Origin: Chitinophaga pinensis
Lineage (GTDB): Bacteria; Bacteroidota; Bacteroidia; Chitinophagales; Chitinophagaceae
Reading direction: 5' to 3'
Length of the DNA stretch: 42,621 bases
NCBI GenBank assembly: GCA_945897185.1
Contig: CAMDFC010000013.1
Location: 1 to 42,621 of the forward strand
The notes under the pieces were generated by a model. That model saw only the letters and a program-made list of their open reading frames with translations. It searched no databases and was not told the origin of the DNA. Both the position numbers and the translations under genes were made by a program. The number at the start of each line of letters is the position of its first letter. The first letter of the stretch is position 1. Below are positions 12,810-42,621 of this stretch, in pieces.

Positions 12810-14265
12810 AAAAGCAATTGTTGTTGGCGCAGGAATTGCTGGAATTGCTACTGCTATTCGATTATCCTTGAAAGGATTTGAAGTGGAAGTACATGAAAAA
12901 AATACAGTCGCAGGCGGTAAAATGTATTTAATTGAAAAGGGGGGTTATAAATTTGATGCTGGGCCTTCTCTATTTACCCAGCCTGCAAATATCGAAGAAT
13001 TGTTTACACTCGCTGGAGAAGACATAAAAAATTACTTTCAGTACGATTCCCTTTCACTTGCTTGTAGGTATTTTTTTGAGAATGGGAAGCAGGTAAATGC
13101 GTATACTTCTGCTGAAGCCTTTGCCAATGAGATGGAAGAAAAGCTAGGAGAACCGAAAGCGCATGTGTTGCGTTATTTGCGCAACGCTGAAAAAGTATAT
13201 GAGGCAGTTGGACAAATATTTCTCAATTTTTCATTGCATAAAGCAGCCACATGGTTGCATCCAAGGGTATTAAAAGCGCTGTCCACTGTTAAGTTTTCTT
13301 ATTTATTCAATACGTTGAATGAATTCAATCACCATAATTTTTCTACACCAGAGGCGGTCCAAATTTTCAATCGTTTTGCTACCTACAACGGAAGTAATCC
13401 TTATAGTGCGCCAGGCATGTTGAGTTTGATCCCGCATTTGGAGCAGAACCAAGGCACTTTTTATCCTACCGGAGGAATGATTAGTATTCCCAATGCTTTA
13501 GTGGCCCTAGCAGAAAAAAAAGGAGTAAAGTTTGTGCTCAACAGCACTGTAAAAGAAATTGTAGTAAAGGATAAAAAAATCTGTGGCATAACAAATGAAA
13601 ATGGATTTGTTTCTGCTGATTTGGTGGTTAGCAATGTAGACAGTTATTTTACCTACAAGCAGTTATTGGGGGATGCTGCTTCTGCAAAAAAAATTCTCAA
13701 GAACGAGAGAAGCAGCAGTGCTTATATTTTTTATTGGGGAGTGAAGAAATCATTTCCTGAGCTCCATTTGCACAATATCTTTTTTAGCGCGTCTTATCAG
13801 GAAGAGTTTCAGCATCTTTTTGTGAAGAAGCAATTTTTTCATGATCCCACCATTTATATCAATGTTACTTCTAAAATGGAAAGTGGTCAGGCCCCTGAGG
13901 GCTGCGAAAATTGGTTCGTGATGGTCAATGCCCCTGCAAATACGGAGATGGATTGGAAGGCTCAACGCGAGGAATTGAGGAGAAATGTAATTACCAAATT
14001 GAATCGCATGTTGTCTACTAACATAGAAGAGCATATCGAGGTAGAAGAGGTGCTAACACCGTTAGACATTGAGCAAAAAACAGATTCTTACAAGGGATCT
14101 CTTTATGGGACCAGTTCCAATTCGAAATGGGCCGCTTTTTTGCGACAAGCTAACTTCTCTTCCCAATTAGAGGGTCTTTATTTTACAGGCGGGAGTGTAC
14201 ATCCAGGAGGAGGTATTCCATTGTGTTTGAAAAGTGCAAAAATAGTTTCAGAAATGATTGGCTAG
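12799..14265 (+). CDS. crtD: carotenoid desaturase of CrtI/CrtD family, probably CrtD
   Basis: A 488-residue FAD-dependent phytoene-desaturase-family protein. The N-terminal dinucleotide fold is VVGAGIAGIATAIRLSLKGF followed by EKNTVAGGKM, and the C-terminal FAD motif is YFTGGSVHPGGGIPLCLKSA. The segment FDAGPSLFTQPANIEELF resembles 1-hydroxycarotenoid 3,4-desaturases (CrtD) rather than Bacteroidota CrtI, which as recalled carries a GPSWYWMP-like segment. The adjacent cruF homologue supports CrtD, since the hydratase and this desaturase act in sequence. No crtB lies next to it. A plain phytoene desaturase remains possible. It overlaps idi by 11 bp. Confidence 0.8.
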   Translation: MKPKKAIVVGAGIAGIATAIRLSLKGFEVEVHEKNTVAGGKMYLIEKGGYKFDAGPSLFTQPANIEELFTLAGEDIKNYFQYDSLSLACRYFFENGKQVNAYTSAEAFANEMEEKLGEPKAHVLRYLRNAEKVYEAVGQIFLNFSLHKAATWLHPRVLKALSTVKFSYLFNTLNEFNHHNFSTPEAVQIFNRFATYNGSNPYSAPGMLSLIPHLEQNQGTFYPTGGMISIPNALVALAEKKGVKFVLNSTVKEIVVKDKKICGITNENGFVSADLVVSNVDSYFTYKQLLGDAASAKKILKNERSSSAYIFYWGVKKSFPELHLHNIFFSASYQEEFQHLFVKKQFFHDPTIYINVTSKMESGQAPEGCENWFVMVNAPANTEMDWKAQREELRRNVITKLNRMLSTNIEEHIEVEEVLTPLDIEQKTDSYKGSLYGTSSNSKWAAFLRQANFSSQLEGLYFTGGSVHPGGGIPLCLKSAKIVSEMIG

Positions 14266-15078: not shown

Positions 15079-15099
15079 ATGATTAAAATCATCTTTTTT
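15079..15099 (+). terminator. weak Rho-independent-like hairpin after cruF
   Basis: The 14-bp perfect palindrome ATGATTAAAATCAT is followed by C and six T residues on the plus strand. It is suitably placed to end transcription of the idi-crtD-cruF unit, but the stem is short and purely AT-rich except for one G-C pair per arm, and it overlaps the 3' end of the convergent LOG-family gene. Confidence 0.35.
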
Positions 15100-15472
15100 C
15101 ACCCAACAACCAGCTTGGTTTTCTTTCCATCGTTTTGAGTCCGTATGTCTCTATGCATTTGCGAATAAGGCCAATGGCCGCTTCCATGATTCCTGGTCCA
15201 CCTCCTCTGAGTACCGTAAAACCCAGTTTAGCCCCCTCAGCAGCAAATCTTCTGGTGAGGTCGTAATAAGGACTATCCTCCTTGAACCAGGCAGAGCCAA
15301 AAATGGTCACGCATGGTCCTGAAAAATGTAACGCACGGAAGCCTCTGATAAATTCAATACAGACCTTGATCACGAACTTGAAGTCTGACCATCTTGAACG
15401 CGGGCCATCTAAAAATTTAATTCTTTTTGCGGCATGTTTCAAATATAAAAAGGCCCTACAGATGCGGGGCAA
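15089..15472 (-). pseudogene. LOG-family (TIGR00730) protein, internally deleted
   Basis: 127 codons remain from a TTG at 15472. The N-terminal half is a clear LOG/cytokinin-riboside phosphoribohydrolase family start: ALHFSGPCVTIFGSAW, YYDLTRRFAAEGAKLGF and GGGPGIMEAA. Normal proteins have about 230-250 residues, with NRGA after this motif and a catalytic PGGxGTxxE further on. Here IMEAA runs straight into IRKCIETYGLK and KPSWLLGEKR, which looks like the native C-terminus of Bacteroidota LOG proteins. This suggests an in-frame loss of roughly 100 codons, including the active site. A TGA stop lies in the same frame nine codons upstream of the TTG, with a further open stretch beyond it. The nucleosidase function is therefore probably lost. 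Confidence 0.6.
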
Positions 15473-15737: not shown

Positions 15738-15777
15738 TACTAATAAAATTAGCATATTATTGCTAATAAAATTAGTA
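15738..15777. promoter_or_regulatory. nested palindromic operator-like site upstream of umuDC
   Basis: Two 17-bp arms, TACTAATAAAATTAGCA and TGCTAATAAAATTAGTA, flank the spacer TATTAT. Each arm holds the dyad CTAAT-AAA-ATTAG, and the arms are also inverted repeats of each other apart from the central AAA. The site therefore offers two dimer sites 23 bp apart, about two helical turns, and ends three bases before the umuD ATG. That position would let a bound repressor block promoter or ribosome access. It is probably the control site of the umuDC cassette; the binding protein is not known and the site does not match a LexA box that I recognise. Confidence 0.6.
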
Positions 15778-15780
15778 TTT

Positions 15781-16212
15781 ATGGATGGGGAAATTTATTA
15801 CCAAGCAGCCTACAGCGGCTCAAAAACCTTTCAACAGCAGGAAGTGAAAACAGCCAATGCCACTGGGTTTGGTGCAGCTTCAGACGACTATGCCGAAAGA
15901 GGCATCGACCTCAACGAACAATTGATTCGAAACAAGCCGGCCACCTTCTTCATGCGGGTATGCGGCGAAGCCATGGTTGGGGCAGGTATTTTTGATGGCG
16001 ATACGGTGATTGTTGATCGAAGCATCAAACCGATGAGCGGAAAGATTGTAATTGCGGTACTTAACGGCGATATGTTGATTCGAAGACTCGATAAAGGGTT
16101 CAATAAAATTCGTTTACTGCCCGAAACCAACAGACTTTCACCTATAGACGTGGATCCTCTTTCAGAATTTTCTATCTGGGGTGTGGTTACGTATGTGATT
16201 CATCAGGTATAG
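15781..16212 (+). CDS. umuD: UmuD-like S24 protein with substituted catalytic dyad
   Basis: 143 residues from ATG 15781; a TTG start at 15733 would run through the palindromic site and is rejected. It aligns along the whole of E. coli UmuD: the arm, ERGIDLNEQLIRNKPATFF, GAGIFDGDTVIVDRS, GKIVIAVLNGDMLIRRL and FSIWGVVTYVIHQV at the end. The nucleophile Ser60 of UmuD (GDSM) is Ala64 here (GEAM, codon GCC at 15970), and the general base Lys97 (VKKL) is Arg101 (IRRL, codon CGA at 16081). The cleavage site Cys-Gly reads Thr28-Gly29. RecA-stimulated self-cleavage should thus be impossible. umuC starts 41 bp downstream. Confidence 0.88.
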   Translation: MDGEIYYQAAYSGSKTFQQQEVKTANATGFGAASDDYAERGIDLNEQLIRNKPATFFMRVCGEAMVGAGIFDGDTVIVDRSIKPMSGKIVIAVLNGDMLIRRLDKGFNKIRLLPETNRLSPIDVDPLSEFSIWGVVTYVIHQV

Positions 16213-16253: not shown

Positions 16254-17552
16254 ATGTTTGCCATTGTTGATTGTAACAGTTTTTATTGTTCTTGCGAACG
16301 CTTGTTCAGACCTGATCTTCACAACAAGCCCGTTGTGGTATTGAGCAACAACGATGGCTGTATCGTTTCCCGCAGCGATGAAGCCAAGCGTGCAGGTATT
16401 GATATGGGTGCACCTTTGTTTGAAAGTCGACAATTAATCAAAGAAAAACAGGTGGCTGTTTTTTCTTCTAATTATCACCTGTATGGCAACCTAAGCATGC
16501 GTGTGATGGATACCCTCCGGGCATTGGCTGATGATGAAGTCCATCGCTGTGTGGAAGTCTATTCTGTAGACGAAGCATTTATCAATGTAGATCATCTGCC
16601 AGTAGGCCACCTACAACCGTTTGCAGAAAAGTTAAGGGATGTGGTGGTGGGATGGACGGGCATTCCAGTTTCGGTAGGTATCGCACCCTCTAAGGTATTG
16701 AGTAAGGTGGCAAACCGCATTGCTAAAAAAGACAAGCAAAAAACGCAGTGTGTAATGGTATTGGACAACGATGAAAAAGTGCAACAGGCATTAATGGCTA
16801 CTGATGTAGCAGACCTTTGGGGCATTGGTAGGCGTTATGCACGCAAACTCAAAGACCTTTATGGTATAAATACTGCATGGCAACTTAAACACATGCCCAT
16901 TGAATGGGCCAGAAAAAATTTAGGTGGAATTGTAGGTGTGCGTATGATTAAAGAACTCAATGGGGAGTCGTGTATTCTGTTGAAAAATCCGTTGGAAAAG
17001 AAAAAAATGATTGCTACCACAAGGATGTTTGGTAAACCCGTTTTTACCTTGCAAGAAATAAAAGAAGCCGTGGCTACCTATACAGCACGTGCAGCAGAGA
17101 AATTAAGAAGACAAAACAGCGCCGCAACTACGTTGGACGTATTTGTAGTTTACAATGGGATAGAAGGGCAACCCTATACGTATGAGCCCAAACACCTGTA
17201 CAATCATTTTTTACTGCTGAAGCCTACTTCAGATACGGCGCAGCTCATCAAAACGGCTTTGCCCTTGGTAGAGTCCTTGTATAGAAAAGGCGCTAAGTAC
17301 CTTAAGGCGGGGGTTGTGCTTGGGGGCTTGGTGCCTGATGATGCCCTACAAGGAAATCTTTTTGCAACTTCGAACGTGCACCAAAACCGCGCTTTGATGC
17401 AGGCACTAGACAATATCAATTTCAGTATGCGGGATGACATGGTGAAGTTTGCTGCATCTGGCTTGTCTAGAAATTGGAAAATGCGACAAGAAATGAGGAG
17501 CAAAAGATTTACCACCAGGTGGGATGAGCTTTACTTGATTAAGGACAAATAA
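16254..17552 (+). CDS. umuC: DNA polymerase V catalytic subunit UmuC (Y-family)
   Basis: A 432-residue Y-family translesion polymerase, similar in length to E. coli UmuC (422). Catalytic carboxylates are Asp6 in MFAIVDCNSFY and Asp106/Glu107 in YSVDEAF. Other marks are VVVLSNNDGCIVSRS, SVGIAPSKVLSKVANR, DLWGIGRRYARKL (helix-hairpin-helix) and the C-terminal FTTRWDEL. A beta-clamp binding peptide of the QxxLF type, QGNLF, lies at residues 366-370. All key residues seem intact, so the polymerase should be active. With UmuD it performs mutagenic bypass of damaged DNA. It forms a two-gene cassette with umuD, 41 bp apart. Confidence 0.95.
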   Translation: MFAIVDCNSFYCSCERLFRPDLHNKPVVVLSNNDGCIVSRSDEAKRAGIDMGAPLFESRQLIKEKQVAVFSSNYHLYGNLSMRVMDTLRALADDEVHRCVEVYSVDEAFINVDHLPVGHLQPFAEKLRDVVVGWTGIPVSVGIAPSKVLSKVANRIAKKDKQKTQCVMVLDNDEKVQQALMATDVADLWGIGRRYARKLKDLYGINTAWQLKHMPIEWARKNLGGIVGVRMIKELNGESCILLKNPLEKKKMIATTRMFGKPVFTLQEIKEAVATYTARAAEKLRRQNSAATTLDVFVVYNGIEGQPYTYEPKHLYNHFLLLKPTSDTAQLIKTALPLVESLYRKGAKYLKAGVVLGGLVPDDALQGNLFATSNVHQNRALMQALDNINFSMRDDMVKFAASGLSRNWKMRQEMRSKRFTTRWDELYLIKDK

Positions 17553-17617: not shown

Positions 17618-18592
17618 ATGTCAAAAGGACCTGTTTCTCAATTTATTCAACACCATTACCGTCACTTCAATGCTGCTGCACTTGTGGATGCAGCAAAAGG
17701 ATATGAACAGCATTTGCTTGAAGGAGGTAAAATGATGGTGACACTCGCAGGTGCCATGAGTACCGCAGAATTGGGCGTTTCACTTGCTGAAATGATCAGA
17801 CAGGGAAAGGTAGATATTATCTCTTGCACAGGTGCAAATCTGGAAGAAGACGTCATGAATCTGGTTGCGCACTCGCACTATAAGCGTGTTCCTAACTACC
17901 GAGATCTTACACCACAGCAAGAATGGGAATTGCTAGAGCAAGGATTGAACAGGGTAACCGATACCTGCATCCCGGAAGAAGAAGCATTCAGGAGAATTCA
18001 ACACCATATTGTAAAACTTTGGAAGGATGCTGATGCCCAGGGCGAAAGGTATTTTCCACACGAGTTCATGTACAAGCTTTTGAAAAGCGAAGTAATGAAG
18101 GCGGATTATGAAATTGATACCAAAGACAGCTGGATGATTGCAGCCATGGAGCGTAACCTTCCTATAGTTATTGGTGGTTGGGAAGACAGCACAATGGGCA
18201 ACATCTTTGCTTCTTATATCATTAAAAATGAAATGAAAGCCACCACCATGAAAAGTGGTATTGAATACATGGTTTGGTTGTCTGATTGGTATCGCCAAAA
18301 CAGTGGAGGTAAAGGAGTAGGCTTCTTCCAAATTGGCGGTGGTATTGCAGGTGATTTTCCTATATGTGTTGTTCCAATGATGTACCAAGATTTAGAATGG
18401 CACGACGTTCCTTTCTGGAGTTATTTCTGCCAAATCAGTGATTCTACTACTTCATATGGTTCTTATTCTGGTGCAGTACCCAACGAGAAAATTACCTGGG
18501 GGAAATTGGATATACATACTCCTAAATACATTGTAGAGAGTGACGCTACCATTGTAGTGCCCTTGATTTTTGCATATATATTGGGTTGGTAA
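17618..18592 (+). CDS. deoxyhypusine synthase-like protein (polyamine enzyme)
   Basis: A 324-residue member of the deoxyhypusine synthase family. The N-terminal part has TLAGAMSTAELG and the TGANLEEDVMNLVAH region of the NAD site; the C-terminal part has SGAVPNEKITWGKLDI, where Lys296 matches the catalytic lysine of human DHS (SWGK, Lys329), followed by ESDATIVVPLIFA. Bacteria lack eIF5A, so the enzyme cannot make deoxyhypusine on that target; characterised bacterial relatives form sym-homospermidine or transfer the spermidine butylamine group in other polyamine routes. No other polyamine gene is nearby. The stop codon overlaps the epimerase start by one base (TAATG). Confidence 0.87.
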   Translation: MSKGPVSQFIQHHYRHFNAAALVDAAKGYEQHLLEGGKMMVTLAGAMSTAELGVSLAEMIRQGKVDIISCTGANLEEDVMNLVAHSHYKRVPNYRDLTPQQEWELLEQGLNRVTDTCIPEEEAFRRIQHHIVKLWKDADAQGERYFPHEFMYKLLKSEVMKADYEIDTKDSWMIAAMERNLPIVIGGWEDSTMGNIFASYIIKNEMKATTMKSGIEYMVWLSDWYRQNSGGKGVGFFQIGGGIAGDFPICVVPMMYQDLEWHDVPFWSYFCQISDSTTSYGSYSGAVPNEKITWGKLDIHTPKYIVESDATIVVPLIFAYILGW

Positions 18593-42493: not shown

Positions 42494-42621
42494 ATGGTAT
42501 CAACATATTATTTAAATGAGGCATTAAAAGAAGCACAAAAAACTGATCCTAAGTCAGTTAGGCCCAATCCCTTGGTAGGAGCTGTTGTGGTGGATGCAAG
42601 TCAAACTATTGTGGGGAGGGG
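42494..42621 (+). CDS. ribD: RibD (riboflavin deaminase/reductase), N-terminal fragment cut by window end
   Basis: The first 42 codons of a gene running out of the window, starting with MVSTYYLNEALKEAQ. The segment SVRPNPLVGAVVVD matches the start of the cytidine-deaminase-like domain of RibD, where (S/R)PNPxVGAV is nearly invariant; the zinc ligands lie beyond the window. RibD deaminates and reduces the pyrimidine intermediate formed by GTP cyclohydrolase II. Its divergent position next to ribE makes this a complete riboflavin pathway locus (ribD, ribE, ribBA, ribH). Confidence 0.85.
   Translation, partial: MVSTYYLNEALKEAQKTDPKSVRPNPLVGAVVVDASQTIVGR

Follow-up and report, generated by a model that had tools for sequence, protein, structure and literature searches.

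A family-wide UmuD variant of Chitinophagaceae lacking the Ser-Lys dyad and its possible role in a Pol V without proteolytic activation

The umuDC locus and the assignment of its first gene

The DNA analyzed here, a stretch of 42,621 nucleotides from Chitinophaga pinensis (contig CAMDFC010000013.1 of assembly GCA_945897185.1) and in the following referred to as the window, encodes on its forward strand at 15781..16212 a 143-aa protein (umuD) for which ORF translation, profile matches and fold matches indicate an S24 fold devoid of the Ser-Lys dyad. Upstream, two SOS boxes of identical sequence, CTAATAAAATTAG, are located at 15740..15752 and 15763..15775 (without strand assignment), both corresponding to the motif CTAA-N5-TTAG (PMC8565304). 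After a spacing of 41 nt, umuD is followed on the same strand by umuC (16254..17552), encoding a Y-family polymerase of 432 aa with a DUF4113 tail, in which Asp6, Asp106 and Glu107 are intact, in agreement with the initial annotation, where the catalytic Asp/Glu residues had been listed as kept. The next gene after umuC (17618-18592, forward strand) belongs to the deoxyhypusine synthase family (PF01916, 139.8 bits) and has no evident SOS link. For the 127-aa frame upstream of umuD (15089-15472, reverse strand), no Pfam family was found; by eye, it looks LOG-like. Two more single matches to CTAA-N5-TTAG within the window, at 14053-14065 and 42549-42561, are possibly due to chance.

In textbook accounts, SOS mutagenesis has a second lock, the self-cleavage of UmuD. 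The window protein matches PF00717 with 75.3 bits (Pfam) and the NCBIfam model NF007621, named 'Pol V autoproteolytic subunit', with 126.5 bits at a cut-off of 110, while a Pfam search of the 143 aa at E 0.001 did not give any HTH match. In phmmer, residues 28/29-141 align to E. coli UmuD/UmuD' (E 5.7e-20 for 1umu). From residue 51 onward, the AlphaFold core is modeled at a pLDDT of about 95, and in the Foldseek comparison with the PDB, ranks 1-4 are occupied by UmuD'/UmuD with TM values of 0.92-0.95 on the target. Judged by this predicted fold, which the initial annotation had proposed to compare with UmuD', the ORF at 15781-16212 encodes a UmuD.

In the window protein, Ala64 (codon GCC, 15970..15972) faces the catalytic Ser60 of E. 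coli UmuD, and Arg101 (codon CGA, 16081..16083) the catalytic Lys97. Both replacements had previously been assigned by eye and are now confirmed by codon reading as well as by the phmmer alignment. A misalignment of the dyad can be ruled out, as the alignment with E. coli UmuD contains a single gap of one residue which is located after the Lys97 column, so that GEAM faces GDSM and LIRRL faces TVKKL. Likewise, the assignment of Thr-Gly in place of the Cys24-Gly25 cut site of E. coli UmuD holds, corresponding to Thr28-Gly29 (ACT GGG, 15862..15867, forward strand). As 28 residues precede Gly29, the frame does not begin at the cut site. The claim of an alignment over the full length of the E. coli protein, in contrast, has to be corrected, since similarity spans residues 28-141 only and the N-terminal arm (15781..15861, forward strand) does not align, being remodelled and without the canonical hydrophobic anchor according to the arm comparison.

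Distribution of the variant and state of the cleavage apparatus

Within the genus, 32 of 41 genomes gave a match to the window UmuD, in all cases a frame without internal stops. Identity amounts to 70-100% in 31 of these matches, the 32nd being a protein of 35% identity with Ser/Lys. Of the 244 genomes in the family sample, 151 gave a match, with orthologues of more than 50% identity in about 117 genomes (counted by eye). The remaining family matches listed show 35-50% identity and represent mostly a different, canonical-looking UmuD, and a second, canonical UmuD is encoded in some genomes of the family. In the phylum sample (395 genomes), matches of at least 53% identity were exclusively obtained from the window's own family, with a next best value of 49%, and all of the 102 clade loci looked up from these genome searches belong to this family. 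In addition, 84,980 species genomes were scanned with clade-derived patterns, and the best 80 of 548 relatives were taken, comprising 30 orthologues and 50 others from across Bacteria. Seventeen of these 30 orthologues are assigned to Chitinophagaceae (with the genera Niastella, Flavitalea, Flavihumibacter, Sediminibacterium, Lacibacter and Limnovirga), one to Chitinophagales and one to Sphingobacteriales, and 11 have no such rank in the record. Hence, wherever the family is known, the orthologues are from Chitinophagaceae, with the area outside the family covered by these best 80 relatives and the clade-derived patterns.

Among the 164 distinct orthologues (in the following, the clade), not a single protein has an intact dyad. 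The two columns read Ala/Arg in 149 proteins, Ser/Arg in 12, Thr/Arg in two and Cys/Arg in one, with Lys completely absent, while the 115 other UmuDs show Ser/Lys in 108, Ser/Arg in six and Ala/Arg in one case. The Ala/Arg pair, first noticed in a single sequence, turned out to be a clade trait with respect to alignment of the dyad columns across relatives (Ala/Arg in 149/164, Arg in 164/164). A sequencing error or a recent or strain-specific loss is rejected, as the same pair is found in the nearest relatives and across the family. A canonical-looking UmuD standing far from the Chitinophagaceae clade, L199 from the MAG Deltaproteobacteria bacterium, has the cut site SAGFPSP and the Ser residue, with the catalytic Lys replaced by Arg.

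A core tree was calculated by a quick method from 168 of 225 distinct proteins after removing the dyad columns, 77 of its 165 inner forks being unresolved. The orthologues are placed on one side of one starred branch, along with three copies without the arm motif, because of which the arm-motif label needs four changes on this tree. Reading the tree by eye, Ser appears in six scattered places within a mostly Ala-bearing group and never together with Lys, so that this column has ceased to behave like a catalytic one, with Arg101 being invariant. By the same reading, Ala was probably the early state of the clade at this position. Recruitment of another nucleophile or base, by which the protein would still cleave itself, could be considered in view of the Ser residue in 12 of the 164 orthologues, but is very improbable, as none of the 164 has Lys, the Ser column of the remaining 152 is occupied by Ala, Thr or Cys, and both P1 and P3 of the cut site have changed too.

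The latter changes were quantified in a recount leaving P1 free, for which six rows mislocated by the pattern were read by eye. Among 116 distinct clade proteins, Ala is not found at P1 (Thr 108, Ser 3, Asn 2, Pro 1, not locatable 2), compared with 102 of 109 other UmuDs. Of the exceptions among the latter, four start at the cut, two carry a local insertion and L095 has Thr. Similarly, a hydrophobic P3 residue is present in 0/114 clade proteins versus 100/104 other UmuDs, with Asn in the window UmuD and mostly Asn/Asp in the clade, and Pro at P9 in 0/114 versus 78/102. A hydrophobic pair at the positions equivalent to E. coli L17 and F18 occurs in 0/114 versus 76/104. Judged by these positions, the entire cleavage apparatus is gone in the clade, beyond the dyad alone. 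A new arm motif is conserved in the clade, Y-x-G-S/T-K-x-F/Y-x-Q-x-x-V/I-x-T-A-N-A, which is followed by T-G-F. As G-F behind the cut is conserved in the clade and in other UmuDs alike, it does not necessarily indicate a cleavage site.

Set against the core, amino-acid differences accumulate less in the clade arm than in the arm of canonical UmuDs, the arm-to-core ratio being 1.46 versus 1.81-2.04 (three canonical sets with 2.04, 1.93 and, from only five proteins, 1.81). This ratio was used since the canonical arm dN/dS in the comparison family is based on four synonymous and six non-synonymous differences, which is too few. In AlphaFold, the arm of the window UmuD is modeled at a pLDDT of about 50 versus 72-74 for residues 1-20 of one canonical control, and the gap is smaller around the cut (51-53 versus 54-62 for residues 21-40 of the control); both models were built with the same 72 rows, and confidence is a weak proxy for docking in this comparison with one control. 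Regarding databases, the dyad-less window UmuD, the only protein scanned with NF007621, passes the cut-off of a model whose name says autoproteolytic, so that automatic annotation of the clade is likely wrong on mechanism.

UmuC partner, selection and SOS control

Of the 128 clade loci having at least 500 nt of downstream sequence, 116 contain a umuC-like frame behind umuD in the same orientation, and 12 show none. In all of the 158 complete UmuC copies, about 80 of them labelled as clade (the split being approximate, since duplicate proteins escaped this label), Asp6, Asp106 and Glu107 are kept. The UmuC partners of the clade form one group with a support of 100 (FastTree, 82 versus 67 rows) and show clade-specific changes at 14 positions, among them Ser9, Cys12 and Val105 in the vicinity of the catalytic residues, Arg393 and an insertion at 224. 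These changes fit co-adaptation with the variant UmuD, but could also be plain lineage markers. Three orthologues without detected umuC downstream, L085, L097 and L132, have lost the NATGF arm motif and kept Arg, while the other nine of the 12 umuC-less clade loci keep the motif or nearly so, which speaks against a simple link between loss of umuC and loss of the motif. Because Arg stays in L085, L097 and L132, the idea that Arg101 serves as an arm clamp appears weakened from these sequences. As mere guesses, Arg101 might form a salt bridge within the dead site or touch UmuC.

Within the genus, pooled dN/dS amounts to 0.079 over 30 umuD loci and to 0.063 over 23 umuC loci, as obtained from non-independent pairs with pS of 0.05-0.6. 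Inside umuD, dN/dS falls from 0.19 in the arm to 0.11 near the former cut site and 0.06 in the core. By this measure, both umuD and umuC are under purifying selection, which for umuC had been an issue of the initial annotation, and its suggestion of selection rather than decay behind the dyad loss is well in line with the low values of both genes and the clade-wide conservation. Relaxed decay, i.e., genes being remnants in the course of loss, might be seen in L085, L097 and L132, lacking a detected umuC as well as the arm motif, and in the nine of 41 genus genomes without a match. For the bulk of the clade, it is contradicted by the low dN/dS values of umuD and umuC. The invariant Arg101, the absence of internal stops from all 32 genus frames and the SOS boxes at 110 of 112 clade copies also stand against decay, which is the least probable of all explanations considered here.

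The motif CTAA-N5-TTAG is the operator of the non-canonical LexA of Bacteroidetes, and Bacteroidetes UmuD is treated as a target gene in the same source, in the relevant parts of which the sole question about UmuD is whether or not it has a DNA-binding domain (PMC8565304). Considering distinct clade proteins with at least 120 nt of upstream sequence, the box precedes 110 of 112 copies (L106 and L138 being the two boxless ones), compared with 0.7% in mononucleotide shuffles. It is also present in 15 of 93 loci filed as other, four of which (L085, L097, L132, and L155) are clade members with changed arm motif, whereas eleven are from the window's family. Based on these motifs, SOS transcription control of clade umuD looks intact. 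The whole genome (G000) contains 21 CTAA-N5-TTAG sites versus 99 for the reversed control pattern, so that the operator word looks avoided elsewhere in this genome. As at umuD, a tandem box pair precedes recA (PF00154) in the same genome (G000:C27:16237-16273, loci L236 and L237), with a spacing of 24 nt versus 23 nt at umuD.

The box also precedes an HTH-S24 gene (G000:C4:59185-59940), the product of which matches HTH_3 with 42 bits and S24 with 19.9 bits, the latter under the Pfam cut-off of 23.3. This protein is a candidate LexA-like repressor and the presumed controller of umuD. Of the 244 family genomes, 228 gave matches to it, which are weak in some cases, and the nearest 30 copies have all kept Ser, Lys and Ala-Gly and are each preceded by a box. 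A second repressor match in the window's genome spans the HTH part only. A Pfam S24 search did not reveal a second UmuD in this genome, the only other PF00717 match being the LexA-like repressor. Thus, the repressor has retained the parts required for RecA-driven self-cleavage, whereas UmuD has not.

A further reading is cutting in trans, with the arm being removed by the LexA-like repressor, by the second, canonical UmuD of some family genomes or by an unrelated protease. The strong conservation of the T-G-F junction, the intact Ser/Lys dyad in the 30 nearest repressor copies and the presence of that second UmuD in some genomes would be compatible with such a reaction, for which trans-cleavage of E. 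coli UmuD S60A by an active partner is a described example (PMC5342242). Still, we regard it as rather improbable, as the canonical Ala at P1 and the hydrophobic residue at P3 are replaced, mostly by Thr and Asn/Asp, respectively, while the repressor's own site is Ala-Gly, and the window's genome offers nothing but this repressor as a further PF00717 match.

The main rival to a function without cleavage is a permanent brake, in which the protein never leaves the UmuD2C checkpoint state, UmuC is held inactive and replication is slowed after damage. It gains its weight from the S60A variant of E. coli UmuD, as this full-length non-cleavable protein, sharing its key change with the clade, strongly reduces UV mutagenesis and sensitizes the cells (PMC3901139, PMC5342242). 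In addition, the arm is kept and conserved in the clade. On the other hand, a never-released polymerase would not need the complete conservation of its catalytic residues (158/158, about 80 from the clade) and the umuC dN/dS of 0.063, a release partner is missing since the Pfam S24 search gave no second UmuD in the window's genome, and the clade has lost the anchor by which the E. coli arm is held down. Overall, a brake seems unlikely. Among the three options offered in the initial annotation, a cleavage-independent function appears to fit the sequence data best, whereas both cutting in trans and a permanent inhibitor are weakened.

An uncut UmuD as possible partner of UmuC

The product of umuD is probably the accessory subunit of Pol V in a variant mutasome which is spread over the family and works without proteolytic activation. 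For the more specific proposal that the family has abolished proteolytic licensing of Pol V, leaving an uncut, arm-bearing UmuD with invariant Arg as obligate partner of a co-evolved UmuC and transcription as the sole gate, arguments for and against appear about balanced. According to the mechanism envisaged, full-length UmuD would pair directly with UmuC, and its arm would no longer dock over the dead active site. In this undocked state, the protein may resemble the non-cleavable UmuD' mimic T14A L17A F18A of E. coli, and the new conserved arm motif would contribute to the function of the complex instead of serving as a removable inhibitor. Control would be exerted by transcription alone via RecA-driven self-cleavage of the separate LexA-like repressor.

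A precedent for an uncut active form can be found in E. coli, where weakened arm docking at T14, L17 and F18 results in a non-cleavable UmuD' mimic (PMC5342242). As S60A lowers mutagenesis, loss of cutting alone need not yield an active polymerase. Moreover, in a published in-silico model of Pol V, the new N-terminus of UmuD' adjoins the UmuC active site, so that an uncut arm must be accommodated there (PMC11791011). A plain UmuD' mimic would not need an arm, whereas the clade has retained and conserved it. Not in favor of the proposed Pol V subunit are the 12 of 128 clade loci without umuC downstream and the higher dN/dS of the arm (0.19) compared to the core (0.06).

With E. coli UmuD (PDB 1umu, 1ay9, and 8gmt), the window protein shares fold, downstream umuC, an SOS-type promoter and a similar arm length, but it differs in lacking Ser, Lys and the arm anchor, in having Thr-Gly for Cys-Gly and in the operator CTAA-N5-TTAG. 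Of the laboratory variants described in PMC3901139 and PMC5342242, S60A has lost the same Ser residue, and T14A L17A F18A finds its counterpart in the clade positions L17/F18, which are without a hydrophobic pair. Unlike these non-cleavable UmuDs, the clade form is natural and family-wide, shows the Lys to Arg replacement and bears a new conserved arm. UmuDAb of Acinetobacter is also a UmuD relative with a changed role, from a group without canonical LexA, but is described as having an N-terminal DNA-binding region and cleaving itself (PMC8565304), whereas the window UmuD is without an HTH match and has lost the dyad. SipA of Streptococcus pyogenes, likewise a dead peptidase of related fold (Foldseek E 0.034) with a non-enzymatic job, belongs to the signal-peptidase branch and functions in pilus assembly, with no polymerase involved as far as described in PMC4049620. 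The non-canonical Bacteroidetes LexA is connected by its operator CTAA-N5-TTAG preceding umuD, and the HTH-S24 protein of the genome fits its type; it keeps the dyad and corresponds to the presumed controller, not to the window UmuD (PMC8565304). In the open-access literature, neither a clade-wide arm-bearing UmuD without dyad was found to be reported, nor this clade in searches for UmuD/umuDC in Chitinophaga or Chitinophagaceae and for UmuD as pseudoprotease.

Loss of both dyad residues and of the cut site in a UmuD maintained by strong selection, in most cases beside its polymerase, suggests that the textbook cut activating mutagenic repair has been given up in this family. HumD of phage P1 (NCBIfam NF051876) by-passes cleavage by truncation and is without an arm, whereas the window UmuD keeps and remodels it. 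HumD-like proteins can be found among another UmuD lineage of the same family, where L100, L102, L142 and L144 start at Met-GFPSP with an in-frame stop upstream, i.e., in the UmuD' form, and L095 has just ten residues ahead of Gly. All five bear Arg for Lys, and one has Ala for Ser. An SOS box is located upstream of L100, L144 and L095, while none was seen upstream of L102 and L142. These truncated UmuDs represent independent escapes from cutting in the same family. As the cut has been lost in two different ways, the family appears not to depend on cutting. A clade without the cut, along with the truncated UmuDs of the family, provides a test of what the cut is for, be it delay of mutagenesis, release of UmuC or control of the arm. 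The genomes encoding L100, L102, L142 and L144 also hold a window-type orthologue.
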